Shown here piece by piece: positions 1 through 13,627 of a DNA stretch of 13,987 nt (positions within the stretch are counted from its first letter, which is position 1; every line of letters starts with the position of its first letter). This DNA comes from Desulfobacula sp. (GTDB taxonomy: Bacteria; Desulfobacterota; Desulfobacteria; Desulfobacterales; Desulfobacteraceae), in the NCBI GenBank assembly GCA_029940235.1, contig JAOZRI010000027.1:1-13987 (forward strand). The letters run 5' to 3'. The notes beneath the pieces were generated by a model that was not told the origin of the DNA, made no database searches, and worked only from the letters and a program-made list of their open reading frames with translations. The translations under genes and the position numbers were made by a program.

Positions 1-3000
1 CTTGAAGCCATGCAGCAGCTTCAGACACAAACTGCCCATGCCCATGAAAAATTCCTTGAAACCCAGACCCAGGCAAGCAAAACCCTGGCAAATATGTTGG
101 AACAGACCCGTAATTTTGCCTTTCATACACCCCTGCCCCAGAGCCAAAAGCAACAACACTGTTCAGTATCTGACATGGATGTACAAGAGATGGAACCAGC
201 TTTGCAAAACAGTATCAAAAGCAATATTACACAAACTGGCCTTACAGATTTTGAAACAAGAAAAATTCAACCTGAAACTGCTCCAGCTTCTCCAATTAAC
301 CAACAGGCTCAGTCAATGGCTGAAAAATCATCTATTGAAGCATCACAAATCCAGGAATCTTTACCTGTAGAACTGCCTGGAAACAAAAATATAGATTCTC
401 AAACCGAGCAGATCCTCTTTGAAATAGTAAGCACTTTAACAGGTTTTCCCGTTGATATGCTGGAATCTGACATGGACATTGAATCTGATCTTGGCATTGA
501 TTCCATTAAAAAAGTAGAAATTATTTCTGAACTTGAAAAGCAGATACCTTCATGTGAGGGTTTGACCACTGAAAACATCGGTTCTGTAAAAACTTTGCAG
601 GATATTTGTGATGCTATATCTGAAACTGGTACTGATACTACCATTACAGATAGTAGTATCTCCACTCTAAATACCTCAGACACGTTTACAACTGATACCA
701 GTACAGCAGGCTCTGCAACAGATAAAATTAATTCATCTCACAACAATAGTTCAAAACAGGATACAGAATCATATCAAGCTGTTTCAACAGTGCTTATAAA
801 TACCATTAGTGAATTAACAGGTTTTCCTGTTGACATGCTCGAACCTTCAATGGATCTTGAATCTGATCTTGGCATTGATTCCATTAAACGGGTGGAAATT
901 CTTTCAAAACTTGAACAGGAGTTAGACCATATTGAAACCATCTCTTCCGAAGGTATTGCAAATTTTAAAACCATTGAAGAGATCATCACATATCTGATTG
1001 GGACAGAAAAACAGAATGTAACTGAACAAAAAAAAACTTCTGATTCCAACTTCTCTTCAAAAAAAACAGACGATAGCCCTGTAAAACGTCTGAATTCTGA
1101 CAGCTCAACGCCTGGGCCTGACCATTTAACATCCAAAAAGGTAAAACCTGATGGTTTATCAGCATCTGATGCCTTAACCGCAGGAAAAAAACTGACAAGA
1201 CAGGTTGTTAAATTAAAACAATATCCCACAAATCAAATCAGGTTTTATAATGGTTCCAGGATAGAACTGCCTGCTGATAAAAAAGTTTATATTACAAAAG
1301 ACAGGTCAAATATTGCCAATGAATTTAAAACCCAATTTGAAAAATCAGGTATTAAAACTGAGCTGATTGATATAAGTAACAAAGGCAATATTCCCCAACT
1401 GCCCGATGCAGCAGGGCTTGTCATTGTGCCAGATTCCTTTGCACAAAAAGATCATGACAGAGCCATGGATTTTATAAAATCAGCATTTTTACTGGTGAAA
1501 AAAAATGCCCGATATCTCATGGAATCGGGTAAAAATAAGGGTGCTTTTTTATCAGGTGTTTCATTTCTTGGTGGAGACTTTGCCTTTTCAGACCAGCCTT
1601 CAGACCAGCCTTTAAATAGGGCTTTTAATTGTGATCCTGTGTATGGTGGACTTGCAGGACTTATAAAGACTGCCAGCATTGAATTTAAAGATGTTTTATG
1701 CAGGGCACTGGATATGCCTGACTCCATCGAACAATGTATAAAAAATGCAGAAGCTGCAGTATCTTTAATGATGACCCATGGCTCCGTTGAGATGGGCCTG
1801 GATGGTGACAATTGCAATATCCCTTCTTTAATAAATCAAGAAATCCCTGACCCTGGCGAGCCTTCATTGAATACTGATGATGTCATCGTTATTACCGGTG
1901 GTGCAAAGGGAGTTACTGCTGCATGTGCCGTTGAACTTGCAAAGCAGTATTCTCCTGCGATTATGCTCATAGGACGAACAGCTGTACCCTCTTTTGAACC
2001 TGAATGGGCAGAGGGTATTCAAGATCCTGGGCTCTTAAAAAAAGCCATACTGACCAATGAGTTTAAAGATCAAAAACCAAAACCTGCTGATCTACAGAAA
2101 ATCTATAAAAACATCATCTCCAATAGAGAAATAGAACAAAACATCCAATTAATGAGAGATCATGGATCAAAAGTTAAATATTTTTCTGCAGACATAAGAG
2201 ATAACAAAGAGATTGATAGTATTTTTCAAACCATACGAAAAGAATTCAAACATATTACTGCAATTATTCATGGTGCAGGAGTCCTTAAAGATAAATTCAT
2301 AGTTGATAAAAGCAGAGACCAGTTTAATCTTGTTCTCGAAACAAAGGTAGAGGGGCTTGATTCACTATTGCCAGCTTTGCAAAAAGACAAGCTTAAATAT
2401 TTTGTCTTCTTCTCCTCCATTGCTGCAAGAATGGGCAACCAGGGACAATGTGATTATGCAATTGCAAATGAAATATTGAATAAAACTGCTCAAAAACTAT
2501 CAATTACAAACCCTGATACTCAATTTTTGTCTATCAACTGGGGGCCGTGGGAAGGCGGCATGGTTGATGCATCTTTAAAAAAAGAATTTAAAAAAAGAGG
2601 TGTTGAACTTATTCCCCTGGAACAGGGCGCAAAACAACTGCTTAAAGAGATGGGAAACCAACAAAACAGCAACCGGGAGATTGTTATTGGAACTCCCCTT
2701 CTTGAAAAGAGAAACACAAAAAAGACAAAACTTTCAAAGGCAATGACGCTGTCCATGGGAACAGATTCAGCCCCTGTTTTAAATTCCCATAAAATAGCCA
2801 GAGAGCCTGTTGTACCTTTTGCATTATTAATGGATCTTCATGCCCATGCAGCAGGAAAAAATAATCCCGGACTTGTGTTTGCCGGAATGGATGATATGCG
2901 CCTTTTAAAGGGTATAAAACCAGGTAAGTCTCAAGTTTCCATGGATATTAACCTGGGAAAATGCCTGCCTGATAAAAACGGGTATAAAACTAAGAGTACT

Positions 3001-4797
3001 ATCTGCTCAACTAATGAAAAGGATCAACTCTTTACCCATTCAAGCTGCAGTGTTCTATTGAAAGAGAGACTGCCTGCCCCGCCGGTTTTGTCTAAAGCTG
3101 CTTTCATGGACCTAAAACCATATTCGCTTACCCCGGACCAGGCTTATGATGAAATTCTATTCCATGGAAAAGCTTTGCAATGCATACAATCCATTGATGG
3201 ATATTCAAAAAAAGGTATTGGTATTACAACAAGTTTATCTCCTGATCCAGATCAGTTGTTGAAAAAACCATATTCTGTAAAATGGGCCATTGAACCTGTG
3301 ATGCTTGATGCAGCTTTCCAAACAGCCATACTCTGGTCATACAAGCGAATGGGACAGGTTTGCCTGCCTGGCTATATTGCTAATTTCAGGATTTATTCAT
3401 CTTTTAAGAATTTAAAGGGAAATATTAAAATTCTATTTACTGTCAACGAAGAGAGTAAAACAAAAATAAAAGGCTATTTCACCTTTCTTGATGAAAACAG
3501 TAAAGTTGTGGCAAGTATAACCGGATTCGAAGCTGTCACGGATTTATCTTTAAATGATAAATTTAAGACAAAACCTCTTTTTGACAAAAAATCCATTCTT
3601 GCCTTTGCCAAGGGAGATCCCTCCAAAGCCTTTGGAGAAAAGTATAAAATATTTGATAAAGAGCGCCAGATTGCACGTCTTCCAAGACCACCCTACTTTT
3701 TCATGGACAGGATTATCAAGGCAGATCACCCCCAATGGCAAATGAAACCAGGCAACTGGATTGAAGCCCAATATGATATTCCGGAAAACGAATGGTATTT
3801 TAATGCCAATGGAACCAATACCATTCCCTTTTGTATCCTCCTTGAAATCGCACTCCAACCCTGTGGATGGCTTGCTGCATATGCTGGTTCTGCCCTTGAA
3901 AGTGATGAAAGACTCTATTTCAGGAATCTTGGGGGTAAGGCCACTTTGATTCAGTCATTGACCCGGCACAGTGGCACAATTACTATTAGAACCCGCATGA
4001 GCGATGTTTCCAAAGCCGGAGGCATGATCATCCAGAACTTTGATCTGCAATTATTAAATAACAATAAAATTGTTTATCAGGGGAAAACCAATTTTGGCTT
4101 TTTCAGTAAACAGGCTCTTTCAAATCAAATTGGAATCAGCAAGAGCAAATTTGCTGATTATCTATTACCCAAAAAAGATTTTAATAACTCAAAAAGCTTT
4201 AATTTTAAGAATCGAGCTCCCTTGACTCCAAACGATGAAAACCGTGATATAAATCCAGGCAGCAATGACGGAATGCCATCTAAAGCACTGCGCATGATAG
4301 ATACTATTGAAGTTTTAAATTTTGACGCAGGACTTTATGACAAAGGATATATCAAAGCCACAAAAAAAGTTGACCCGTCTGAGTGGTTTTTTAATGCTCA
4401 TTTTTACCAAGACCCTGTTTGTCCGGGTTCTCTTGGTGTTGAATCTTTTCTTCAGATGATTAGACTTTTTCTTTTGGAAAAATTTAATCTTACAGGGAAT
4501 AAAGCAGAAGAATATGAGGTACAATTGTCTTCTGGAAACAGCCATGAATGGATTTACAGAGGACAGATTATTCCTAAAAACAAAAAAATTACTATCCATG
4601 CCCATATCAAATCTGTAAACAAGGATTTATCTGTTGTTGCTGACGGGGCACTCACAGTGGATGGTATATGTATTTATGAGATGAAAAACTTTGGTATGAC
4701 CTTAATTAAAAAATACATAGGTAATAAGACTCTCAAGAAAAGCCAGGTTTCAGAAAATCAAGAAATTGATTTATTATTAAAGGATACAGATATCTGA
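1..4797 (+). CDS. pfaA: PUFA/polyketide-type lipid synthase, PfaA-like, 5' partial (ACP-ACP-KR-DH-FabA-like DH x2)
   Basis: The frame is open from base 1 with no RBS at the first ATG (10), so this is the C-terminal part of a larger gene. Numbering from that ATG: a Gln/Ala-rich helical linker like the one after the MAT domain of PfaA (1-45); two ACPs with LGIDSIK motifs, phosphopantetheine serines S165 and S291; a Ser/Thr-rich inter-ACP linker; a ketoreductase with TGGAKGV at 629-635 and catalytic S803, Y816, N820; a polyketide-type dehydratase with H927 (HxxxxxxxxP) and D1100/Q1104 (DxxxQ); then two FabA-like hotdog domains. The second has an intact active site (H1464, DPVCPGSLG, E1478); the first has N1267 where histidine is expected. 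In known Pfa systems the FabA-like pair sits on PfaC, so this polypeptide looks like a PfaA-PfaC fusion. It should act in the cytosol in iterative synthesis of a long-chain, possibly unsaturated, acyl product; which product is unknown. KS, MAT, ER and CLF are not visible. The 3' end overlaps the convergent gene by 21 bp. Confidence 0.9.
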   Translation, partial: LEAMQQLQTQTAHAHEKFLETQTQASKTLANMLEQTRNFAFHTPLPQSQKQQHCSVSDMDVQEMEPALQNSIKSNITQTGLTDFETRKIQPETAPASPINQQAQSMAEKSSIEASQIQESLPVELPGNKNIDSQTEQILFEIVSTLTGFPVDMLESDMDIESDLGIDSIKKVEIISELEKQIPSCEGLTTENIGSVKTLQDICDAISETGTDTTITDSSISTLNTSDTFTTDTSTAGSATDKINSSHNNSSKQDTESYQAVSTVLINTISELTGFPVDMLEPSMDLESDLGIDSIKRVEILSKLEQELDHIETISSEGIANFKTIEEIITYLIGTEKQNVTEQKKTSDSNFSSKKTDDSPVKRLNSDSSTPGPDHLTSKKVKPDGLSASDALTAGKKLTRQVVKLKQYPTNQIRFYNGSRIELPADKKVYITKDRSNIANEFKTQFEKSGIKTELIDISNKGNIPQLPDAAGLVIVPDSFAQKDHDRAMDFIKSAFLLVKKNARYLMESGKNKGAFLSGVSFLGGDFAFSDQPSDQPLNRAFNCDPVYGGLAGLIKTASIEFKDVLCRALDMPDSIEQCIKNAEAAVSLMMTHGSVEMGLDGDNCNIPSLINQEIPDPGEPSLNTDDVIVITGGAKGVTAACAVELAKQYSPAIMLIGRTAVPSFEPEWAEGIQDPGLLKKAILTNEFKDQKPKPADLQKIYKNIISNREIEQNIQLMRDHGSKVKYFSADIRDNKEIDSIFQTIRKEFKHITAIIHGAGVLKDKFIVDKSRDQFNLVLETKVEGLDSLLPALQKDKLKYFVFFSSIAARMGNQGQCDYAIANEILNKTAQKLSITNPDTQFLSINWGPWEGGMVDASLKKEFKKRGVELIPLEQGAKQLLKEMGNQQNSNREIVIGTPLLEKRNTKKTKLSKAMTLSMGTDSAPVLNSHKIAREPVVPFALLMDLHAHAAGKNNPGLVFAGMDDMRLLKGIKPGKSQVSMDINLGKCLPDKNGYKTKSTICSTNEKDQLFTHSSCSVLLKERLPAPPVLSKAAFMDLKPYSLTPDQAYDEILFHGKALQCIQSIDGYSKKGIGITTSLSPDPDQLLKKPYSVKWAIEPVMLDAAFQTAILWSYKRMGQVCLPGYIANFRIYSSFKNLKGNIKILFTVNEESKTKIKGYFTFLDENSKVVASITGFEAVTDLSLNDKFKTKPLFDKKSILAFAKGDPSKAFGEKYKIFDKERQIARLPRPPYFFMDRIIKADHPQWQMKPGNWIEAQYDIPENEWYFNANGTNTIPFCILLEIALQPCGWLAAYAGSALESDERLYFRNLGGKATLIQSLTRHSGTITIRTRMSDVSKAGGMIIQNFDLQLLNNNKIVYQGKTNFGFFSKQALSNQIGISKSKFADYLLPKKDFNNSKSFNFKNRAPLTPNDENRDINPGSNDGMPSKALRMIDTIEVLNFDAGLYDKGYIKATKKVDPSEWFFNAHFYQDPVCPGSLGVESFLQMIRLFLLEKFNLTGNKAEEYEVQLSSGNSHEWIYRGQIIPKNKKITIHAHIKSVNKDLSVVADGALTVDGICIYEMKNFGMTLIKKYIGNKTLKKSQVSENQEIDLLLKDTDI
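481..888 (+). repeat. Exact 30-bp direct repeat at the two ACP active sites (481-510 and 859-888)
   Basis: The 30 bases coding for ESDLGIDSIK are identical at 481-510 and 859-888, an offset of 378 bp or 126 codons. A second identical block (TTAACAGGTTTTCC) occurs at 436-449 and 814-827 with the same offset. The flanking ACP codons and the inter-ACP linker have diverged. This shows tandem duplication of the ACP module, with either recent gene conversion or strong constraint around the phosphopantetheine serine. Confidence 0.85.
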
Positions 4798-5340
4798 ATC
4801 ACAGGGGCAGGCATCATCCACTTCACAGGCATAAATAATTCTTGATGCCTGGTCAAACATCTTCTTTGTAATGGGCTTAAATAGAAAAAAGGGCATATCG
4901 TTTTGTACACTTTTTTTATCAGGTAAATTTTTTAACCCGGCTGCAATGACTTTTCCTGAATTTCCATCAAGAATCTCAGCATCTTCCCCATTGGTGATAA
5001 CAGCAATGGGTATCTGGTAAGGTTTAATGATCCGAGACAGGCCAATGGTTGAAAGTCGTCTGGTAACAAGAGATCCTGGTGAATATTTAATGAGTGCAAC
5101 AATCTTTTTTTGAAACCTGATTAAAAAATCAACTTTGATGGAAGCCTTTCTTTCACCTGCCAGAATCTCAAGATCAACACTGTTTAAAATATCTGTTTTT
5201 TTAAACCCGCCATTGAGAACAAGTTGTTTTGCAATTTTTTGCAGGTATCTTTCATCAAGTGTATCACTTATAACAGCACTTGTTAAAAAACATTTAAGTT
5301 TTCCAAGAACCAGATGATGGGGATTTGATTGTTTTTCCAT
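4777..5340 (-). CDS. HsdR N-terminal-like (HSDR_N_2 type) domain protein, likely non-catalytic
   Basis: 187 aa, last gene of the minus-strand operon, starting 30 bp after the ASKHA gene stop. The fold signature resembles the stand-alone proteins annotated in Desulfobacterota as 'type I restriction enzyme HsdR N-terminal domain': an alpha-helical N-terminus, a beta-meander with D71, a strand ending L83-I84-K85-Y, then SPGSLVTRR, IPIAVITNGEDAEIL and GKVIAAGL. In active PD-(D/E)xK nucleases the strand reads E-x-K; here the acidic residue is Leu, so nuclease activity is doubtful. The C-terminus is Cys-rich (CEVDDACPCDSDIC), which could bind metal. No HsdM, HsdS or helicase domain is nearby, so restriction is not implied. 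The RBS is weak and translation may depend on upstream coupling. Its stop lies inside the 3' end of the convergent synthase gene (21-bp overlap). The family call is from memory of conserved sequence; the function is unknown. Confidence 0.72.
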   Translation of the reverse strand: MEKQSNPHHLVLGKLKCFLTSAVISDTLDERYLQKIAKQLVLNGGFKKTDILNSVDLEILAGERKASIKVDFLIRFQKKIVALIKYSPGSLVTRRLSTIGLSRIIKPYQIPIAVITNGEDAEILDGNSGKVIAAGLKNLPDKKSVQNDMPFFLFKPITKKMFDQASRIIYACEVDDACPCDSDICIL

Positions 5341-5370: not shown

Positions 5371-6945
5371 TTAGCCTATATTTAATAACCTTTTATCTGC
5401 TTCAATTTTATTTTGCAGTGAAGGGAACCTGGAAATATCTGTGTGGGGATAAAATTTTGCCCCGGAAAACATATTCATGAATTCCTGGTTCACATTGAGT
5501 TCAATATAGGTTATGGATTTTCTAATTTCCACTACTCTTTCAAAAGCATCAGGGTTTGTGAGCAAAACCTTTGCTCCTCCAAGGCTGCTGTTTCCAAGGA
5601 CTTCAAATGTATCTAAAGGAATATCAGGAAGCATTCCAATGGATATTGCAGATCCTGGATTGATAAAAGAGCCAAATGTTCCTGCAACATAAAATTTGTG
5701 CAAATCTTTGAACGTCAAACCAGCAGTATTACATACAATTACTTCCAGTATGGTAAACATGGCAGCTTTTGAACTTGTCAAAGAATTTAAGTCCACCTGG
5801 CTTAAACAGATTGGTTCACCTGTAGCTGACTGATTTTCATCAACAAGGGTAAAACTCATTATTCCGTCCTGCTCAAACAACTGTTCTTTACATATCGCTT
5901 TAGAAAATTTTCCTCTTATATCAATGCGTTTTGATAAAAACAGGCCTGCTGCAAGATCAATCATTCCCGATCCGCAGATACCAATGGGTTTTTTCCCATC
6001 AATGGTGTGAATTTTTAAATCATTTGTTTCAGGATCAATCCAGACCTTGTCAATGACTCCTGGTTTTGCTGTCATACCCATTTTACTGACTCCACCTTCA
6101 AGTGCAGGTCCAGCAGCTCCTGCACAGGCAATGAGAAAATCCCGGCTTCCCACAACAATTTCTGCATTGGTTCCCACATCAACCATAAGGCAGATGTCTT
6201 CTTTTTGATCAAGATTGGAAAACAAAATACCTGCTATGAGATCACCGCCAAAATAGGAACCAATATTTGGGAATAAAAATGCCACACCGTTTTGATTGAT
6301 ATCAAGGTTTAAACTATCTGCTGCCAGTGTATCAGGAATATTCACGCATGGGATATAGGGTTCTTTGATAATTTCAAAGGATTCAATGCCGAGAAACAGA
6401 TGGGTCATGGCAGTATTACCTGCAGCAGTGACAAGATAGATATCTTTTGTCTGCACTCCATGTTCTTTACACAGTTTTGACATATTCCAATTCACTGCAT
6501 CAATCACAAGGCGGTTGAGTTCAGCAAGTCCTTCATCGTGATTTGAATAATGAATTCTTGTAAGGATATCAGGTCCTATGACAGCCTGGGGGTTATCAAA
6601 ACCTTGTTCTCCTATCTCCTGCCCTGTTTCAAGATCAATTAAGGAGATGACAATTCTAGTGGATCCGATATCAATAGCTGCACCGAGAACAGATATATCC
6701 AATAGTGTATCAAGTAACTCTAGAACTATCCAGGAAGACTGGGTTTTAAAAAGAACTGCCTTTGCTTTAAAATTCCATGATCTTAAATTTGAAGGCAGTT
6801 TTTTAAGTATATGCAGAGGGATAGAAATTTTATCTGCACATAACTCTTTTTTAAGGCTTTGTTCTAATCTCCCTGCATCTGCTGTATTGTCTGACAAACT
6901 TGGCCGGTCAATTTCAATGGTACGGACAAAACCTTTTGCCTGCAT
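5371..6945 (-). CDS. RACo-like ASKHA ATPase lacking the ferredoxin domain (corrinoid activation family paralogue)
   Basis: 524 aa. It aligns along its whole length to the upstream gene product minus that protein's first ~118 residues, so the [2Fe-2S] domain is absent. Residues 1-85 match the linker/middle region (IPLHILKKLP... resembling NLSLIRKIP...). The ASKHA core begins at AIDIGSTR (D92), followed by TAAGNTAM, SYFGGDLIAG, MVDVGTNAEIVVG, GAAGPALEGG, GICGSGMIDL and VAGTFGSFINPGSAISIG, all matching positions conserved in RACo and related activators of corrinoid proteins. The family uses ATP to drive uphill reduction of inactive Co(II) to Co(I). Without its own Fe-S domain this copy may partner the upstream full-length protein, or be regulatory. 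Its ATG shares the last A of the upstream TAA (TAATG, 6943-6947), which predicts translational coupling. The corrinoid target is not encoded in the window. Confidence 0.85.
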   Translation of the reverse strand: MQAKGFVRTIEIDRPSLSDNTADAGRLEQSLKKELCADKISIPLHILKKLPSNLRSWNFKAKAVLFKTQSSWIVLELLDTLLDISVLGAAIDIGSTRIVISLIDLETGQEIGEQGFDNPQAVIGPDILTRIHYSNHDEGLAELNRLVIDAVNWNMSKLCKEHGVQTKDIYLVTAAGNTAMTHLFLGIESFEIIKEPYIPCVNIPDTLAADSLNLDINQNGVAFLFPNIGSYFGGDLIAGILFSNLDQKEDICLMVDVGTNAEIVVGSRDFLIACAGAAGPALEGGVSKMGMTAKPGVIDKVWIDPETNDLKIHTIDGKKPIGICGSGMIDLAAGLFLSKRIDIRGKFSKAICKEQLFEQDGIMSFTLVDENQSATGEPICLSQVDLNSLTSSKAAMFTILEVIVCNTAGLTFKDLHKFYVAGTFGSFINPGSAISIGMLPDIPLDTFEVLGNSSLGGAKVLLTNPDAFERVVEIRKSITYIELNVNQEFMNMFSGAKFYPHTDISRFPSLQNKIEADKRLLNIG

Positions 6946-8882
6946 TATTTATGCAGTCTTTCAAGGCGTTCCTTTACCTTTGGAAAATAGTTAAGTTCAG
7001 TATGGGGTAAGAACAGTGCTCCCATATAGTGATCCATATAAGAAGTAGTTGAAGCAAGTTCAAAGTTGGTCATCATATTAACAACCTTTGCCACATCACG
7101 GCGAAGCGCATTGGTCAGGGAATTGATCTTGCAACCAAGAAGAGAACCATTGCCAAGATAGGTAACTTTTTCAGGATCAATCTCAGGTAAAAGCCCAATA
7201 GTAATTGCACTTTCAAGGTCAACATAACTACCGAATCCACCGGCAAGAATAATTCTTTCAATATCAGTAATTTTAAGTCCTATCTCTTCAAGCAGGGTTA
7301 AAGCAGCACTGTACATGGCACCTTTTGCCCTGATAAGATTATCAATATCAGGCTCTGTAATGGCAATATCCCTGTCTATGCCATTATCTTTTTCATATAC
7401 AAGGACATATTCCCATATTTCATCTGTTACACGGATTCTTGGAGTATCAAGGGTTCGATCAAACTTGCCACGGGAATCAATAACACCTGTTTCTAAAAGC
7501 TTTGCCACAAGGGTAATTAAACCAGACCCGCAGATACCTTTTGCCTTTTTATTTCCAACGGTTATGATCATGGGTTCCAGGGTCTCAGGGTTGATCGCAA
7601 AATCTTCAATTGCTCCCTTTGCTGCTCTCATGCCAAACTTTACCCCTCCACCTTCAAATGCAGGACCTGCAGAAGCTGCCGTACAGACCATCCAGTCCTT
7701 ATGACCAATAACGATTTCAGCATTGGTTCCAATATCCATATAGAGTGTGAGTTCTTTAGATCTGTATAGACCCGAAGCCATGACTCCTGCAATAATATCT
7801 CCGCCGACATAAGAAGAGACTCCAGGATACATCAATGCTATGGTATGATCGGCAAGAGCTATTCCAATATCAGATGCATGAAAAGGTGGATAGACAATAC
7901 AGGCGGGTACATAAGGATCCCTGCGGATATATCTTGGATCGATTTTAAGCAGCAGCTGTGTCATTGTGGAATTACCGGCAAGGGTAATGGTTGTTACTTC
8001 ATCTTTTCCTATTTTTGCCTTTTTAATAATTCTTTTAAGAATTTTATTTATGGTATCAAGAATTTTTTCCTGCAAGACTTCAAGGCCATCACCTTTTTCT
8101 GTAAACATAATTCTTGAAATAACATCTTCTCCATAGCTGATCTGGCTGTTGAATTCACCATGTTCAGCAAGAATTTCTCCAGTGTGCAAATCAAGTACCT
8201 GACCAAAAACAGTGGTAGTTCCTATATCAACTGCAATGGCAAAATTTCTGTCGCTGGTATCAAAAGGCTCAATATTTACTATCTCATTTTTACCATCTTT
8301 TCTTACTGGTCGTACAATGGTTGCTGTAACCTTGAACTCACCTTCTCTGATAATATAAGGTATTTTCCTGATCAAACTCAAGTTCATGGTCAAGCGGTGT
8401 TCATCATGTTCATGGCGAAGATTATTGATAATTCTTGCAACATCTGCCTGGTTATCGTCTGCAGTTGCCTGGTCAAGTTCAAGATATATTTTTTCCACCG
8501 GCGGGATAAAAAGCCCATCTTCTCTTAATTCATCAATATTGGAATACATCACTTTTGCAGTATGTCTTGCTCCTGCCCGTACATTCAATCGGCTGGTATC
8601 AACTTCTGATTCAACAGGAATTCTTACTTTCAAGTCAGATGTTATTTCAGAAAGACAGGCAAGCCTGTACCCTTTTGAATAATCTTCATCACTTAACTGC
8701 TCTGAAGTACCGCCTTTTACACTGCCTTCTTCAAGCAATACTCTGCATTTCCCACACACTCCACTTCCCCCGCAAGAGGCATTAATATGAACACCTGCTT
8801 CCATGGCAGCTCGGATAAGGCTTTCGTTTTCTTCAACTTCAACTTTTACATTATATGGTAAAAATTCTATGGAATATGTCAT
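6945..8882 (-). CDS. RACo-like corrinoid-protein reductive activase, [2Fe-2S] ferredoxin plus ASKHA ATPase
   Basis: 645 aa from the chosen start at 8882, where AAGGA lies 7 nt upstream and the protein begins MTYSIEFLPY, the normal start of the ferredoxin fold. An extended start at 8963 would add 27 residues that look unlike the family and has a badly spaced Shine-Dalgarno. Domains: plant-type [2Fe-2S] ferredoxin with C37, C43, C46 and C76; a linker/middle region (~100-210); an ASKHA domain opening with AVDIGTTT (D219) and continuing through MDIGTNAEIVIG (D383), SAGPAFEGGGVKFGM, GICGSGLI and LAGGFGSYVDLESAITIGLLP. This is the architecture of RACo and of methyltransferase corrinoid activases: the Fe-S cluster donates an electron and ATP hydrolysis drives Co(II) to Co(I) in a corrinoid protein. 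It is first in a three-gene operon, followed with a 1-nt overlap by a paralogue lacking the ferredoxin domain. No CODH/ACS or methyltransferase gene is in view, so the partner is unknown. Confidence 0.9.
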   Translation of the reverse strand: MTYSIEFLPYNVKVEVEENESLIRAAMEAGVHINASCGGSGVCGKCRVLLEEGSVKGGTSEQLSDEDYSKGYRLACLSEITSDLKVRIPVESEVDTSRLNVRAGARHTAKVMYSNIDELREDGLFIPPVEKIYLELDQATADDNQADVARIINNLRHEHDEHRLTMNLSLIRKIPYIIREGEFKVTATIVRPVRKDGKNEIVNIEPFDTSDRNFAIAVDIGTTTVFGQVLDLHTGEILAEHGEFNSQISYGEDVISRIMFTEKGDGLEVLQEKILDTINKILKRIIKKAKIGKDEVTTITLAGNSTMTQLLLKIDPRYIRRDPYVPACIVYPPFHASDIGIALADHTIALMYPGVSSYVGGDIIAGVMASGLYRSKELTLYMDIGTNAEIVIGHKDWMVCTAASAGPAFEGGGVKFGMRAAKGAIEDFAINPETLEPMIITVGNKKAKGICGSGLITLVAKLLETGVIDSRGKFDRTLDTPRIRVTDEIWEYVLVYEKDNGIDRDIAITEPDIDNLIRAKGAMYSAALTLLEEIGLKITDIERIILAGGFGSYVDLESAITIGLLPEIDPEKVTYLGNGSLLGCKINSLTNALRRDVAKVVNMMTNFELASTTSYMDHYMGALFLPHTELNYFPKVKERLERLHK

Positions 8883-8889
8883 TATTGCA

Positions 8890-8894
8890 TCCTT
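8890..8894 (-). promoter_or_regulatory. RBS deciding the start of the ferredoxin-ASKHA gene
   Basis: On the minus strand AAGGA sits 7 nt before the ATG at 8882. This supports that start over the upstream in-frame ATG at 8963, whose nearest purine-rich motif (AGGAGG, 8979-8984) is 15 nt away and buried in a predicted hairpin. Confidence 0.7.
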
Positions 8895-8965
8895 CTTTAT
8901 TGCACATTTATATAAAAAGTACTGCCTGCTAAAGATCAGCTTACCTCTTTTGCTTTCTGCCATTC

Positions 8966-9252: not shown

Positions 9253-10716
9253 ATGAAAAAAAATGATAAAAGCAATTTACCAATGAGAACAATTGATAAA
9301 AGTGTTTTAGAGGGTATTGTAGGTAAAGACAATATTAAAACTGATCCTTCCGACCTCTATATTTACGGAACAGATTCATCTGTACATCATGCCATGCCAT
9401 GGGCTGTGGTCAAGCCAAGGACAACTGCACATGTTCAGGGAATCATGAAATATGCTAATAAAAATCTCATCCCCGTTATAGCAAGGGGTGGTGGTTCTGG
9501 AATGTGCGGACAGACTGTCCCAATTCATGGAGGGATCATCCTTGATATGAAATCAATGAATAAGATCCTTGAAATCAACCTTGAAGATGTTTACTGCCGG
9601 GTTGAACCAGGGGTTGTGGACGATGATCTTAACCTTGCATTGGAACAATATGGTGTTTTTTATCCGCCAACGCCGGCTTCCTCCCGCATTGCCACCATTG
9701 GCGGTGAAATAGCCAATAATGCCAGTGGTGTGAGATCTGTAAAATATGGAGCAACAAGGGATGCTGTCCTTGGTATGAAAGTTGTCCTGCCCAATGGAGA
9801 CCTTGTCAGTCTTGGAGCGCACACCAGGGTTGAAGCATCGGGTTACCAGCTTCATAAACTCATGGTTGGCTCTGAAGGTACACTTGGTATTGTTGTGGAA
9901 GCAACATTGAGTTTTGTTCCCATCCCGGAATTTAGATGCATGGGAGTTGCCAATTTTGATGTTCTTGAAGATGCAGGCAAAGCTATTGGTTCCATTATGG
10001 CATCGGGAGCCACCCCTTCCATGCTGGAACTGGTTGATGATGTAGCAATAAAAGCTGTCAACAAAACCATGGATCTTGGACTTAAAGAAGTTGCAGCAGC
10101 TCTTATATTTGAGGCCGACGGCATGGTCAAAGAAGCTGTTGATTATGAGATCAATAAAATGAAAAAAATATGTGAAAAGCATAATGGTAAAGATATTCAC
10201 GCAAGTTATGATCCAGCTGAAAGGGCAAAAATATTCATGGGAAGAAAAAAACTTTTTCCAGCTCTTTCCAAATATGACGACGACCTTGCAAGCACAGCTC
10301 TTGCCGATGATATGGCAGTTCCCTATTCAAAAATGGCTGAAATGGCAGCAAAAATTCATGAAATAGCAGATAAAAACAATATTGTTATGACAGCTTATGG
10401 CCATTGCGGTTCAGGATGTATGCATACTAAAATACTCATGGATACAAAAAGAAAAGACCAATGGGCTTCAGCAAAAAAAGCAATATCTCAGGTTTATGAA
10501 TATGTCAGATCTGTGAATGGGACAACAAGTGCCGAGCATGGCATAGGGATTTCCAAGGCAGAATCATTCAAGGTTGAAAAAGCAGATTCATTAAATCTTT
10601 TAATCACCATTAAAAAAGCCCTTGACCCCAATAATATTTTAAATCCTGGCAAGCTCATGCAGGCACCTGAAAACTGGGTAACTGCAACTAATTTGAGATA
10701 TGCAGTAAATAATTAG
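9253..10716 (+). CDS. FAD-binding D-2-hydroxyacid (probably D-lactate) dehydrogenase, GlcD/Dld family
   Basis: 487 aa, the normal length for the GlcD family. The N-terminal PCMH-type FAD domain has RGGGSG (78-83) followed by ILDMKSMNKI, and the second FAD stretch ATIGGEIANNASG with KYGATRD (147-171). The C-terminal FAD-oxidase cap has GHCGSGCMH (H384, H391), matching the family GHxGDGNxH motif with Ser and Cys at the usual Asp and Asn positions; then SAEHGIG (E428, H429) and DPNNILNPGK. The family oxidises D-lactate, glycolate or D-2-hydroxyglutarate to the 2-oxoacid with FAD. The next gene, 49 bp downstream, is an Fe-S electron carrier, as expected of a GlcD-GlcF or LldEFG-like pair, and larA lies further down, which favours lactate. 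There is no signal peptide or membrane segment, so it is cytosolic or peripheral. The substrate is inferred from context; the family is certain. Confidence 0.92.
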   Translation: MKKNDKSNLPMRTIDKSVLEGIVGKDNIKTDPSDLYIYGTDSSVHHAMPWAVVKPRTTAHVQGIMKYANKNLIPVIARGGGSGMCGQTVPIHGGIILDMKSMNKILEINLEDVYCRVEPGVVDDDLNLALEQYGVFYPPTPASSRIATIGGEIANNASGVRSVKYGATRDAVLGMKVVLPNGDLVSLGAHTRVEASGYQLHKLMVGSEGTLGIVVEATLSFVPIPEFRCMGVANFDVLEDAGKAIGSIMASGATPSMLELVDDVAIKAVNKTMDLGLKEVAAALIFEADGMVKEAVDYEINKMKKICEKHNGKDIHASYDPAERAKIFMGRKKLFPALSKYDDDLASTALADDMAVPYSKMAEMAAKIHEIADKNNIVMTAYGHCGSGCMHTKILMDTKRKDQWASAKKAISQVYEYVRSVNGTTSAEHGIGISKAESFKVEKADSLNLLITIKKALDPNNILNPGKLMQAPENWVTATNLRYAVNN

Positions 10717-10765
10717 GTTTTGGTATAATTAAATTAGCATTATTAGATTAAGAGGTTAATTCTCC

Positions 10766-11731
10766 ATGAAAACTAAAACAGTGAAAACTAAAACAAAAAA
10801 ATTCAAACATCTTGGAAAATGGCAGGACACTCTGGCAAACTGTATCAGATGTGGATATTGTTTTGAACATTGCCCGATGTTCCACCATACAGGCTGGGAA
10901 TCTGATGCACCAAGAGCAAAAATAGTTACAGCTTTCGGACTTTTGACAGGAGAAGTTGAGCCATCATACTCTGCCATTGATAAAATGTTCTCATGCTTTT
11001 ATTGCTTGAGATGCGAAGCTGCATGCTCTTCAGGTGTTGCTTTAACTAAAGTTTTTACAGATGCCAGAAAAGACCTTGTTGAAATGGATCTACAAGAGGG
11101 TCCTGGCACAACATCCACAACAACTCTTCAATGTGCCCGCTGCCTTGTCTGCATAGAAGAGTGCCCCCATGAAGCAAGGTTTTACGATGGAAAAAATATT
11201 GCCACTGACCCGTCAAAATGTCAATCATGCGGTATCTGTGTTGAAGTCTGCCCAGCAGGCGCTGCCACAATTGAAAAAAGTTTTGGAACCAGCAGAAACG
11301 ATCTAACAAAAAGAGCTTCTATATTTCTCCAGAACCATGAATCTGCAAAAGCAATTGTTTTTGCCTGTAACTGGTCATATTACCCAGGGCTCCAGGCTTC
11401 AGTACTGCCAGACTCAGAAACTTCCGGCAACGACTATGAAATCCTTGTGAACATGTGCGGGGGACGTCTTGAAGCACAATTATTAATGGCACCTTTTCTT
11501 AATAATGCCTGGGGTGTCATGGCGGCCTGCTGCCCTGATGATGAATGCGAGCATAAGGGATACCTGAATGCAAAAAAACAGATTGAAAAACTTCGCAAGA
11601 CATTTAAAAACATTGATATTGATCCAGAAAGAATCCAGCTTGTTCAGATCCCGGCTGGAAACAAAACACTGTTCCAGGCTGAGATTGATACTTTTATTGA
11701 AAAGCTTAATAAGATGGGACCGATACGATAA
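10766..11731 (+). CDS. Fe-S electron-transfer subunit: four [4Fe-4S] motifs fused to an MvhD/FlpD-like domain
   Basis: 321 aa. Four complete CxxCxxCxxxC motifs lie at residues 26-36, 77-87, 123-133 and 152-162, so up to four [4Fe-4S] clusters can be bound. Residues ~195-318 form an MvhD/FlpD (hydrogenase delta subunit) domain: FACNW (C201), MCGGR (C231), AACCPDDEC (C255, C256, C261), HKGYLNAKKQIEKL and the family-like ending FIEKLNKMGP. The usual CNWC reads CNWS here. The CCG domains typical of GlcF and HdrD are absent; the MvhD-like domain occupies that place. Next to the FAD dehydrogenase it should take electrons from reduced flavin and relay them. In methanogens and sulfate reducers MvhD/FlpD docks onto HdrA, so the acceptor may be an HdrA-like flavoprotein elsewhere. 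The Lys/Thr-rich start (KTKTVKTKTKK) is basic and not a signal peptide. Co-transcription with the upstream gene is likely. Confidence 0.88.
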   Translation: MKTKTVKTKTKKFKHLGKWQDTLANCIRCGYCFEHCPMFHHTGWESDAPRAKIVTAFGLLTGEVEPSYSAIDKMFSCFYCLRCEAACSSGVALTKVFTDARKDLVEMDLQEGPGTTSTTTLQCARCLVCIEECPHEARFYDGKNIATDPSKCQSCGICVEVCPAGAATIEKSFGTSRNDLTKRASIFLQNHESAKAIVFACNWSYYPGLQASVLPDSETSGNDYEILVNMCGGRLEAQLLMAPFLNNAWGVMAACCPDDECEHKGYLNAKKQIEKLRKTFKNIDIDPERIQLVQIPAGNKTLFQAEIDTFIEKLNKMGPIR

Positions 11732-11768
11732 AATAATTAAAAGTGAAAAATGCATAGTAAATAATTAA

Positions 11769-11807
11769 GGAAGAGACCATTCATTTAAATTAAAACGGTT
11801 TTCTTCC
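11769..11807 (+). other. Intercistronic stem-loop before larA
   Basis: GGAAGAGACC (11769-11778) pairs with GGTTTTCTTCC (11797-11807): about 10 bp with one G-U pair and one bulged T, and an 18-nt AT-rich loop. No T-run follows, so it is not a classical terminator. It could stabilise or process the upstream dehydrogenase mRNA, or be an operator next to the larA promoter. Confidence 0.4.
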
Positions 11808-11811
11808 GCAA

Positions 11812-11841
11812 TTGTCAATTATTAATTATTCAGTTTCTAAT
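11812..11841 (+). promoter_or_regulatory. Candidate sigma-70 promoter for larA-thioesterase
   Basis: TTGTCA (11812-11817) and TCTAAT (11836-11841) are separated by 18 bp; each matches 5 of 6 consensus bases. The start site would fall near 11848, about 34 nt before the larA ATG. This suggests larA can be transcribed separately from the dehydrogenase pair, in keeping with the 150-bp gap. Confidence 0.45.
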
Positions 11842-11881
11842 CTTTAGGTTAGTTATTCATAATGAAAAAAGGAATTTCTTG

Positions 11882-13123
11882 ATGAAAATAGATGTACCCT
11901 ATGATAAAAACGGCTCCATGTCAGCCGTTATAGACGATGATATAGATGTAAATTTCCTTGAAGCCAATTATGTCAAAATTGGTGACGAGGATAAAAATAT
12001 TCAGGCTGCCATAAATTCTCCCATAAACAGCAAAAGTTTTAAAGAATTTCTAAGTGATGCAAAAAAGGTTCTTGTGATTGTCAATGATGCCACAAGGCCC
12101 ACTCCAACAAAAAAAATCCTTGAATTTATCTTTGATGACTTAAGAAAGACCAATTTTAATTTTATCATTGCAACAGGTGCCCACAGGGGACCATCCGAGG
12201 AAGAATACCTCCAGATTTTTGGCTCTTTTTATGAACAAGTAAAAGACCAAATTATAGTTCATGATGCCAGGGCTGACAAAGATATGGTCTATCTTGGAGA
12301 CTCTTCCAATGGAACACAGATGTATGTAAATAAAGCAGGAGTAGAAGCTGATAAAATAATAATAATATCTTCTGTGGAGCCCCACTATTTTGCCGGATAT
12401 ACAGGTGGAAGAAAATCCTTTCTGCCGGGGATTGCAGGATATAAAACAATAGAGCAGAACCATAAGCTTGCCCTTGTTCCAGAGGCAAAATCTCTGGCCC
12501 TTGAAGGAAACCCTGTTCATGAAGATATGATGGATGCCATTAAAACCGTAAAGCAGGAAATCTTTTCCATCATGACGGTTCTTGATAAAAACCACAAAGT
12601 CTATGCCACCTGCTGCGGTCACATCAATGATTCATTCCATGCTGCCATTGATCAGGCAAATGAGGTATTTGCAGCGCCCTTAAAAGAGAAAGCAGATATT
12701 GTTGTATCAATTGTAAAATTCCCCCAGGATATTGACCTCTACCAGGCTCAAAAGGGCATTGACAATGCAAAGCTTGCCCTGAAAAAAGAGGGTATCATGA
12801 TTCTTGTTGCAAAATGCAGGTGTGGTATTGGTGGAAAAGCCTTTGCTGATCTTCTTGGTTCAAGTGATACTCCTAAAGCTGCTCTTGATACCATTGAAAA
12901 AGGATATGTCCTTGGGTATCACAAGGCTGCAAAAATGGCTGAAATAGGGCTATGGGCACAAATGTGGGCTGTCACAGATGTGGAACCTGATGTTATTTCA
13001 AAACTTTTCATCAAACCTTTCAGTGATCTTCAGACAGCCATTGATCAGGCAATAAAAGAGAAAGGCAAAGATGCAAGTGTTTTGTTTTTAATGGATGGCG
13101 GACTTATAGTGCCCCAGGTTTAG
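11882..13123 (+). CDS. larA: LarA-family nickel-pincer 2-hydroxyacid (lactate) racemase
   Basis: 413 aa from ATG 11882; AAGGA at 11869-11873 is 8 nt upstream. A TTG one codon earlier is possible but less well placed. The residues that hold and use the nickel-pincer nucleotide in Lactobacillus LarA are recognisable: DATRPTP (D69, R72), GAHR (H101), PHYFAGYTGGRK (H168 and K178, the lysine that binds the pincer), NH (H194) and QAQK (Q288, K291). The 10-residue H168-K178 spacing equals that of LarA. The enzyme interconverts L- and D-lactate by hydride transfer through a Ni pincer cofactor. The cofactor-making larB, larC and larE are not in the window and must be elsewhere if it is active. LarA homologues also racemise or epimerise other 2-hydroxyacids, so lactate is inferred from the adjacent D-2-hydroxyacid dehydrogenase. 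Its role would be to feed L-lactate into a D-specific oxidase. It is cytosolic. Confidence 0.87.
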   Translation: MKIDVPYDKNGSMSAVIDDDIDVNFLEANYVKIGDEDKNIQAAINSPINSKSFKEFLSDAKKVLVIVNDATRPTPTKKILEFIFDDLRKTNFNFIIATGAHRGPSEEEYLQIFGSFYEQVKDQIIVHDARADKDMVYLGDSSNGTQMYVNKAGVEADKIIIISSVEPHYFAGYTGGRKSFLPGIAGYKTIEQNHKLALVPEAKSLALEGNPVHEDMMDAIKTVKQEIFSIMTVLDKNHKVYATCCGHINDSFHAAIDQANEVFAAPLKEKADIVVSIVKFPQDIDLYQAQKGIDNAKLALKKEGIMILVAKCRCGIGGKAFADLLGSSDTPKAALDTIEKGYVLGYHKAAKMAEIGLWAQMWAVTDVEPDVISKLFIKPFSDLQTAIDQAIKEKGKDASVLFLMDGGLIVPQV

Positions 13124-13201: not shown

Positions 13202-13627
13202 ATGGAAAATATCTGGAAAAAAGATCTCAATCTTGAAGAACTTACACAATTTACACAAAATTCAATTGTTGGACATCTTGGAATTATTTATACAAAAAGA
13301 AACACTAATTCTTTAATTGCCACCATGCCGGTTGACCAACGAACTATTCAACCTCTTGGCATACTCCATGGTGGAGCTTCGGTTGTTCTGGCTGAAACAC
13401 TCGGCAGTACGGCATCGTATATGACAGTGGAAGATCCGGTATACACTGTTGGTCTAGAGGTAAATGCCAATCATGTTAAAAGCGTAACTGAAGGTATTGT
13501 AACTGGAACAGCCAAGCCTATTCATCTTGGGAATACCACCCAGGTGTGGGATATAATGATAAAAAATGAAAAAGGTCAATTAACCTGTATGTCCAGGCTG
13601 ACCATGGCAGTCTTAAAAACCAAATAA
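13202..13627 (+). CDS. YdiI/MenI-like hotdog acyl-CoA thioesterase
   Basis: 141 aa, a complete single hotdog domain. It closely resembles E. coli YdiI (MenI, 1,4-dihydroxy-2-naphthoyl-CoA thioesterase) throughout: ATMPVDQRTIQPLGILHGGASVVLAE, VGLEVNANHVKS, KPIHLGNTTQVWDI and a C-terminal SRLTMAVL. The expected active-site residues are H56 and E65 in HGGASVVLAET. AAGGA lies 5 nt before the ATG. It is 78 bp downstream of larA and may be co-transcribed with it. MenI would serve menaquinone synthesis, which suits an anaerobe using menaquinone, but relatives (EntH/PaaI group) act on other aryl- or acyl-CoA substrates, and no men gene is nearby. Family assignment is firm, substrate is not. The stop codon sits 2 bp from the end of the convergent htrA remnant. 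Confidence 0.88.
   Translation: MENIWKKDLNLEELTQFTQNSIVGHLGIIYTKRNTNSLIATMPVDQRTIQPLGILHGGASVVLAETLGSTASYMTVEDPVYTVGLEVNANHVKSVTEGIVTGTAKPIHLGNTTQVWDIMIKNEKGQLTCMSRLTMAVLKTK

Follow-up and report, generated by a model that had tools for sequence, protein, structure and literature searches.

A 13,987-nucleotide stretch of Desulfobacula sp. DNA (assembly GCA_029940235.1, contig JAOZRI010000027.1), referred to here as the window, was analysed for three consecutive genes encoding a GlcD-type flavoprotein, an iron–sulfur (Fe–S) protein ending in an FlpD/MvhD domain and a LarA-family racemase. The assembly is a metagenome-assembled genome (MAG), 78.7% complete. A first-pass annotation of the DNA, made from its letters, had described these genes as a D-lactate oxidation module wired through an MvhD/FlpD domain, possibly to an HdrA-type complex, and the three open reading frames (ORFs) were found where it had placed them:

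9253..10716, plus strand: GlcD-type FAD dehydrogenase, proposed D-malate dehydrogenase (487 amino acids; PF01565 and PF02913; catalytic and metal-binding residues, pocket Lys)
10766..11731, plus strand: Fe–S protein (321 amino acids; GlcF-like head, two further 4Fe–4S clusters and an FlpD/MvhD tail; PF02662)
11354..11719, plus strand: FlpD/MvhD domain within the Fe–S protein (PF02662 in a genome search, 95.5 bits, sole match in the assembly)
11879..13123, plus strand: LarA-family nickel-pincer racemase, proposed malate racemase (414 amino acids; PF09861 and PF21113; LarAH6 the best NCBIfam model; GxHK, AQK)

The GlcD start codon (ATG 9253) is preceded by AGGAGA. For LarA, ATG 11882 is the probable start and was preferred over TTG 11879 because AAGGA lies upstream of it. 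Between position 8500 and the end of the window, the plus strand showed no terminator-like site.

An MvhD/FlpD-like C terminus had been predicted for the Fe–S protein in place of the CCG domains of GlcF/HdrD, and hidden Markov model searches bore this out: PF02662 matched residues 197–318 (93.1 bits, cut-off 22.3, E = 1.7e-26), and PF02754 gave no match at E ≤ 1. The four CxxCxxCxxxC motifs are likewise present (C26/29/32/36, C77/80/83/87, C123/126/129/133 and C152/155/158/162), together with matches to several 4Fe–4S families; in 19 aligned sequences, that of the window among them, neither these 16 Cys nor the FlpD residues C201, C231, C256 and C261 vary. Among NCBIfam models, residues 108–320 match the C terminus of HdrA2 (99.7 bits) and residues 6–110 the N terminus of GlcF (46.2 bits), both far under the full-length cut-offs; the HdrA2 match spans only model positions 564–774 of 777 and leaves the FAD-binding core of HdrA/HdrA2 unmatched. 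The protein can be read as a fusion of a GlcF-like head with an HdrA2-like ferredoxin–FlpD tail. An AlphaFold2 model was mediocre (mean predicted local distance difference test score 67.5), with an N-terminal half too weak to place, and its PDB matches at E ≤ 0.001 were four, all MvhD-type chains of Hdr complexes (5odh_D, 5odc_D, 8rvu_F and 7bkb_F). A protein search returned 287 homologues at E ≤ 1e-20, of which the best 120 were listed; ‘hydrogenase iron-sulfur subunit’ is a source name used for such homologues.

Gene order was followed in a scan of genome contigs that found 133 stretches encoding the Fe–S protein; locus counts below refer to the best 80 of these 133, numbered with an L. The pairing of GlcD with an MvhD fusion proved general, GlcD immediately preceding the Fe–S gene in all 77 loci that have room for it, and LarA follows that gene directly in 68 of 78. 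The gene order is therefore not a matter of chance. The ten loci without a downstream LarA are seven archaeal ones and L081, L084 and L089, the last of which has a LarA-like ORF elsewhere in the locus. Hosts of the unit are mostly Desulfobacteraceae, then Acidobacteria, Spirochaetia, Syntrophorhabdaceae, Dehalococcoidia, Thermoplasmatota and one Woesearchaeota.

The substrate was approached through the residues of LarA, whose roles were taken from the available sections of PMC7583248. A complete pincer-binding set, as first described, is present (pincer R73, K179 and H195; catalytic H102, H169 and K292), as is D70. The best NCBIfam model for the window LarA is that of LarAH6 malate racemase (NF052593, 376.2 bits, below its cut-off of 500); the lactate racemase model NF033504 gave 289.9 bits, below its cut-off of 460. 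LarAH6 was also best for eight of eight further LarAs of the unit (368–429 bits), with lactate racemase second or third. According to the same sections, the substrate positions of lactate racemase are F175, F176, V297 and W358, their counterparts in the malate racemase Mar2 are Y172, K173, Q293 and K351, and a GHK motif marks the malate groups (PMC7583248). LarAs of the unit carry Y, F, Q and K at these positions, so that three of the four are malate-like (Y, Q, K) and one of the four matches the lactate-type pocket. All 66 sequences have HYF and a Q preceding the catalytic Lys, and GxHK is present in each of the 65 readable ones, one being incomplete (window included in each count). Malate racemases had been recognised earlier, and COG0277 and COG0247 oxidoreductases had been seen near LarA homologues, as those sections report (PMC7583248). 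The MAG also encodes LarC, which was found by genome search. In L055, L057 and L058 the LarA is 52–53% identical to that of the window, the GlcD 76%, and SQK takes the place of AQK; the GlcD–FlpD pair seems to be followed there by a LarA of a second lineage.

The assignment of the first gene to the GlcD-type FAD dehydrogenases was confirmed by PF01565 and PF02913, and alignment to mouse LDHD showed that the catalytic Arg, two metal-binding His, Glu and catalytic His are retained. Similarity amounted to 251 bits with LctD (7qh2_C) and 197 bits with mouse LDHD. In its side-chain pocket mouse LDHD, which has no activity on D-malate, carries Ile407, and human D-2-hydroxyglutarate dehydrogenase (D-2-HGDH), which is active on D-malate, carries Asn443 at the same position. 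This position is Lys in all 67 readable sequences among 69 GlcDs of the unit, window included, and by motif in 119 of 120 close homologues, the remaining one giving no motif match. The D-2-HGDH distal-carboxylate pair Lys401/Asn443 is not reproduced as such, the Asn443 position being Lys by hand alignment. A paralogue survey of 11 genomes yielded 40 GlcD places, 12 of unit type and 28 paralogues, of which 30 were fetched: the pocket Lys is present in 12 of 12 unit-type GlcDs, and in the 18 paralogues fetched the position is Met, Asn, Leu or Thr, never Lys (0/18). One database entry under the name Desulfobacter postgatei (P0239) is a GlcD of unit type; ‘glycolate oxidase’ is among the source names used for such proteins. 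With LarAH6 as the best racemase model, the GxHK signature and a pocket Lys specific to the unit, the earlier suggestion that LarA makes both lactate isomers usable is not supported, and we conclude with moderate confidence that the substrate is probably malate, not lactate.

Neighbours within 9.5 kb were surveyed in the 80 loci by scanning representatives of ORF clusters, other members being assigned by clustering; part of the clusters was scanned. The informative neighbours are genes of C4-acid and one-carbon metabolism. Malic enzyme occurs in eight of the 80 loci (L025, L026, L028, L034, L064, L069, L070 and L083), aconitase in four, an OadA/PycB type in five, an MmdA type in six, a MetV type in 13, a MetF type in ten and PFOR in three. 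C4-acid or citric-cycle genes (malic enzyme, aconitase, OadA, MmdA) are present in 11 of the 80; L099 (Dehalococcoidia) additionally encodes both fumarase subunits, alpha and beta, and an FrdA-like protein. In seven genomes picked by eye, malic enzyme lies 6.0–9.1 kb from the unit. The 13 loci with MetV-type genes (methylenetetrahydrofolate reductase partner) beside the unit are L080–L084, L086, L088, L063, L064 and L067–L070; this reductase partner is another donor of about −200 mV, here beside an FlpD protein.

HdrA, the electron acceptor originally envisaged, has homologues on two contigs of the MAG, C490, where HdrC- and HdrB-like ORFs precede a tandem HdrA-like ORF that the contig end truncates, and C390, where an HdrA-like ORF follows NuoE/NuoF-like ones; the HdrB/C, NuoE/F and nearby MetF/MetV names on these contigs are readings of the translations. 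PF02662 was found nowhere in the MAG beyond the window, which, at 78.7% completeness, neither supports nor refutes the wiring. Elsewhere the pair does adjoin such genes. In L093 (Thermoplasmatota) it lies among an HdrA-like protein, HdrC/HdrB-like ORFs, MvhG/MvhA-type hydrogenase genes and a maturation protease, together with two FlpD proteins that stand alone and another two HdrA-like ORFs, and in L099 HdrC- and HdrB-like genes follow it. Hdr or Mvh genes are near the pair in 12 of the 80 loci, counting the opposite-strand FlpD/HdrA-like proteins of L063, L067 and L068. HdrA would be the most likely partner of FlpD. The proposal that lactate electrons enter an HdrA-type complex is accordingly split: its HdrA part is in keeping with the homologues in the MAG and the Hdr/Mvh neighbours elsewhere, and its lactate part is not supported by the LarA and GlcD residues and the neighbours. 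Two further arrangements were seen. The L093 cluster, seen also in L096 and L101, further has a Fer4_22 protein and a DHODB-type flavoprotein around the GlcD/Fe–S pair, with no LarA, and L063 (12360–13898 and 13895–15040, minus strand) encodes a 512-amino acid FlpD fusion of a second kind beside a 381-amino acid HdrA-like flavoprotein and MetF/MetV-type genes, with these clusters also present in L067 and L068.

We consider it slightly better than an even chance that the three genes form a unit interconverting L-malate and oxaloacetate without an NAD- or quinone-dependent malate dehydrogenase, with electrons passing via FlpD to HdrA. As judged by its signature residues, the nickel-pincer LarA would interconvert L- and D-malate, and the GlcD flavoprotein would oxidise D-malate to oxaloacetate, its pocket Lys presumably holding the second carboxylate. 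Electrons would then run from FAD through the four [4Fe–4S] clusters to the FlpD domain, along an anatomy that the motifs and domain matches establish, and FlpD may dock on an HdrA-type flavoprotein as MvhD does. The malate/oxaloacetate couple lies at about −170 mV and cannot readily reduce NAD+; the most likely course is therefore that HdrA confurcates malate electrons with those of reduced ferredoxin to give NAD(P)H. H2 would be an alternative product in the archaeal clusters with MvhAG-type genes. The docking and the confurcation are both steps that we infer from known complexes and textbook potentials.

Distribution was examined in 78 genomes of the window's family, 42 of them good (at least 90% complete and at most 5% contaminated). 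The Fe–S gene is present in 67 of the 78 and in 40 of the 42 good ones, and the unit looks like core metabolism of the family. Mqo (PF06039) was found in none of the 78 genomes and PF02615 (Ldh_2) in 11, in 10 of them over the cut-off. Among the 42 good genomes, 26 lack both of these families as well as PF02866 (malate/lactate dehydrogenase); the Fe–S gene is present in 25 of the 26. In a class sample of 155 genomes, with completeness of 90% or more for all but the window's MAG, PF02866 was found in 7 of 26 carriers (two by weak partial matches) versus 119 of 129 non-carriers (Fisher p = 7e-12). Outside the family it occurs in 6 of 21 carrier genomes, a raw count, uncorrected for background rate or genome completeness. 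Survey genus g8 looks like Desulfobacter, PF02866 in its genome G022 occupying the same place as in a D. vibrioformis genome; six genomes of this genus in one to three contigs (G016, G033, G038, G047, G055 and G066) have none of PF02866, PF02615 and PF06039. A modified citric acid cycle serves acetate oxidation in Desulfobacter, according to the portions available of PMC2702500 and PMC7699770. Genus g14 looks like Desulfotignum (the unit of G026 has the contig place of L044), and its genome G041 carries the Fe–S gene. Desulfotignum phosphitoxidans is unable to use lactate, according to the available part of PMC4046663; other genomes of Desulfotignum carry the unit.

The unit probably stands in for malate dehydrogenase in many Desulfobacteraceae. 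A wider proposal, which we put forward tentatively and hold to be somewhat short of an even chance, is a citric acid cycle variant in which fumarase yields L-malate, the racemase D-malate, and a flavin/Fe–S/FlpD dehydrogenase passes the electrons to HdrA for confurcation. Such a variant would have replaced NAD-malate dehydrogenase and Mqo in many Desulfobacteraceae, including Desulfobacter, and would make a step of the cycle dependent on the nickel-pincer cofactor.

Several observations weigh against a malate unit of this kind. PF02866 is present in 29 of the 78 family genomes. Malic enzyme is present in 66 of the 78, and in all 26 good genomes lacking the three dehydrogenase families, and malate therefore has another exit there. 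The carriers of the class sample are a single family, so the PF02866 contrast amounts to one evolutionary contrast; an anticorrelation between the unit and malate dehydrogenase inside the family, which was also tried, was not significant (p = 0.50, with two non-carriers). For malate oxidation in extracts of D. postgatei, a 1983 paper is reported to describe a quinone- or dye-linked activity. The same paper is cited for an NAD-linked malate dehydrogenase assay in the available part of PMC12137691, which may count against the proposal in D. postgatei. At the protein level, no curated LarA cut-off was reached by the window LarA or the further ones scanned (9 of 9), LarA shares a Phe with lactate racemase at one of its four pocket positions, where Mar2 has K173, the GlcD score with TIGR00387 is 391.4 bits against a curated cut-off of 567.9, the GlcF cut-off is likewise unmatched by the Fe–S protein, and hand alignment via mouse LDHD places no Lys at the counterpart of D-2-HGDH Lys401. 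As for gene context, 69 of the 80 loci lack a malic enzyme, aconitase, OadA or MmdA cluster member, and in the window itself the immediate neighbours include no C4-acid genes and HdrA is not adjacent to the unit.

The same enzymes might run in the opposite direction, low-potential electrons reducing oxaloacetate to D-malate and, via the racemase, to L-malate for a reductive C4 branch, which in other hosts would be compatible with the malate unit as proposed. The L099 unit, with its OadA/PycB-type, MmdA-type, fumarase, FrdA-like and HdrB/HdrC-like genes, speaks for this, as does the C4 branch of D. phosphitoxidans, which is thought to be reductive in the available part of PMC4046663; acetate oxidation through the cycle in Desulfobacter needs the oxidative direction, and we find the reverse reaction possible but doubtful.

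The original lactate module, with GlcD as a D-lactate dehydrogenase, LarA as a lactate racemase and FlpD as the electron link to HdrA, now appears unlikely. In its favour are the 290-bit match of LarA to the lactate racemase model, the Phe of the LarA pocket and the relationship of GlcD to LctD and mouse LDHD; GxHK and AQK/SQK in LarA are not of lactate type, however, the GlcD pocket holds Lys, neither a lactate permease nor LutABC was among the scanned neighbour clusters (part of the clusters), and the unit is near-universal in a family with acetate specialists. An acceptor other than HdrA is also improbable. LctD works with Etf, and an ETF-alpha-type gene lies about 4 kb away in 17 of the 80 loci and a CCG/4Fe–4S protein in 10, so that electrons could go to ETF or to a membrane CCG protein with FlpD as a mere relay; but these genes are on the opposite strand and confined to Desulfobacteraceae among the loci listed, structure comparison of FlpD gave chains of Hdr complexes as its four best matches, and the pair adjoins Hdr or Mvh genes in Thermoplasmatota and Dehalococcoidia. 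Another dicarboxylic or polar 2-hydroxyacid (tartrate, 2-hydroxyglutarate or citramalate) is unlikely as substrate: tartrate is a side activity of malate racemases (PMC11770544, available part) and D-2-HGDH relatives act on D-2-hydroxyglutarate as well as D-malate, but hydroxyglutarate racemases have an NQT and not a GHK motif in the sections seen of PMC7583248, and malic enzyme, aconitase, OadA and fumarase neighbours indicate malate.

Some other genes of the window were considered as members of the unit and set aside. A thioesterase of the EntH/MenI hotdog type (13202–13627, plus strand) lies directly 3′ of LarA, and searched as a query it gave no match beside the unit in the listed loci of relatives. 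Two overlapping AcsV/RACo-like corrinoid activases, the second without an Fer2 domain, occupy 5371–8963 on the minus strand; they were kept as neighbours, with no match in rows L078–L104, and an activase of this cluster lies divergently, on the strand opposite the unit, in 32 of the 80 loci. Further upstream, the plus strand at 10–4797 encodes a large protein with KR, ACP and FabA-like domain matches, which we take to resemble part of a polyunsaturated fatty acid synthase of the PfaC type, and the minus strand at 4777–5340 a small HSDR_N_2 protein (31.6 bits).

If the proposed malate unit is correct, a widespread family of sulfate reducers would carry out a textbook reaction, L-malate to oxaloacetate, by chemistry other than that of malate dehydrogenase and deliver the electrons to Hdr-type energy coupling. 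One group of nickel-pincer racemases would gain a physiological role, there would be an explanation for acetate oxidisers that gave no match to a malate dehydrogenase family, and the source names ‘glycolate oxidase’ and ‘hydrogenase iron-sulfur subunit’ would need correcting. In the open-licence literature searched, as far as its texts were available, no description of a GlcD–FlpD–LarA unit or of a D-malate route in sulfate reducers was found.

Among the closest known systems is LctBCD, whose LctD subunit is likewise a GlcD-type flavoprotein. LctBCD is an electron-confurcating lactate dehydrogenase in which lactate and ferredoxin electrons together reduce NAD+; it uses EtfAB, whereas the unit has an Fe–S protein ending in FlpD and a racemase, and LctD has Tyr where the unit GlcD has the pocket Lys. 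The MvhD/FlpD of Hdr complexes with hydrogenase or formate dehydrogenase (5odc, 7bkb and 8rvu) is the same domain by profile and fold, but in the unit four 4Fe–4S clusters are fused to it and its partner is a 2-hydroxyacid dehydrogenase. GlcD/GlcF glycolate oxidase and the archaeal GlcD–HdrD pairs share the placing of a flavoprotein beside an Fe–S protein; the GlcF/HdrD partners end in CCG domains and that of the unit in FlpD. Pairs of glcD and hdrD have been described in archaea (PMC6474303, as far as its text was available). With the malate racemases LarAH5/Mar1 and LarAH6/Mar2 the unit LarA shares its best model and the GxHK and Q signature, but it scores under the LarAH6 cut-off, has Phe for Mar2 Lys173 and occurs together with a dehydrogenase pair. 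Malate:quinone oxidoreductase and NAD-malate dehydrogenase would catalyse the same net step from malate to oxaloacetate; they are unrelated proteins, and the unit is proposed to act by way of D-malate.

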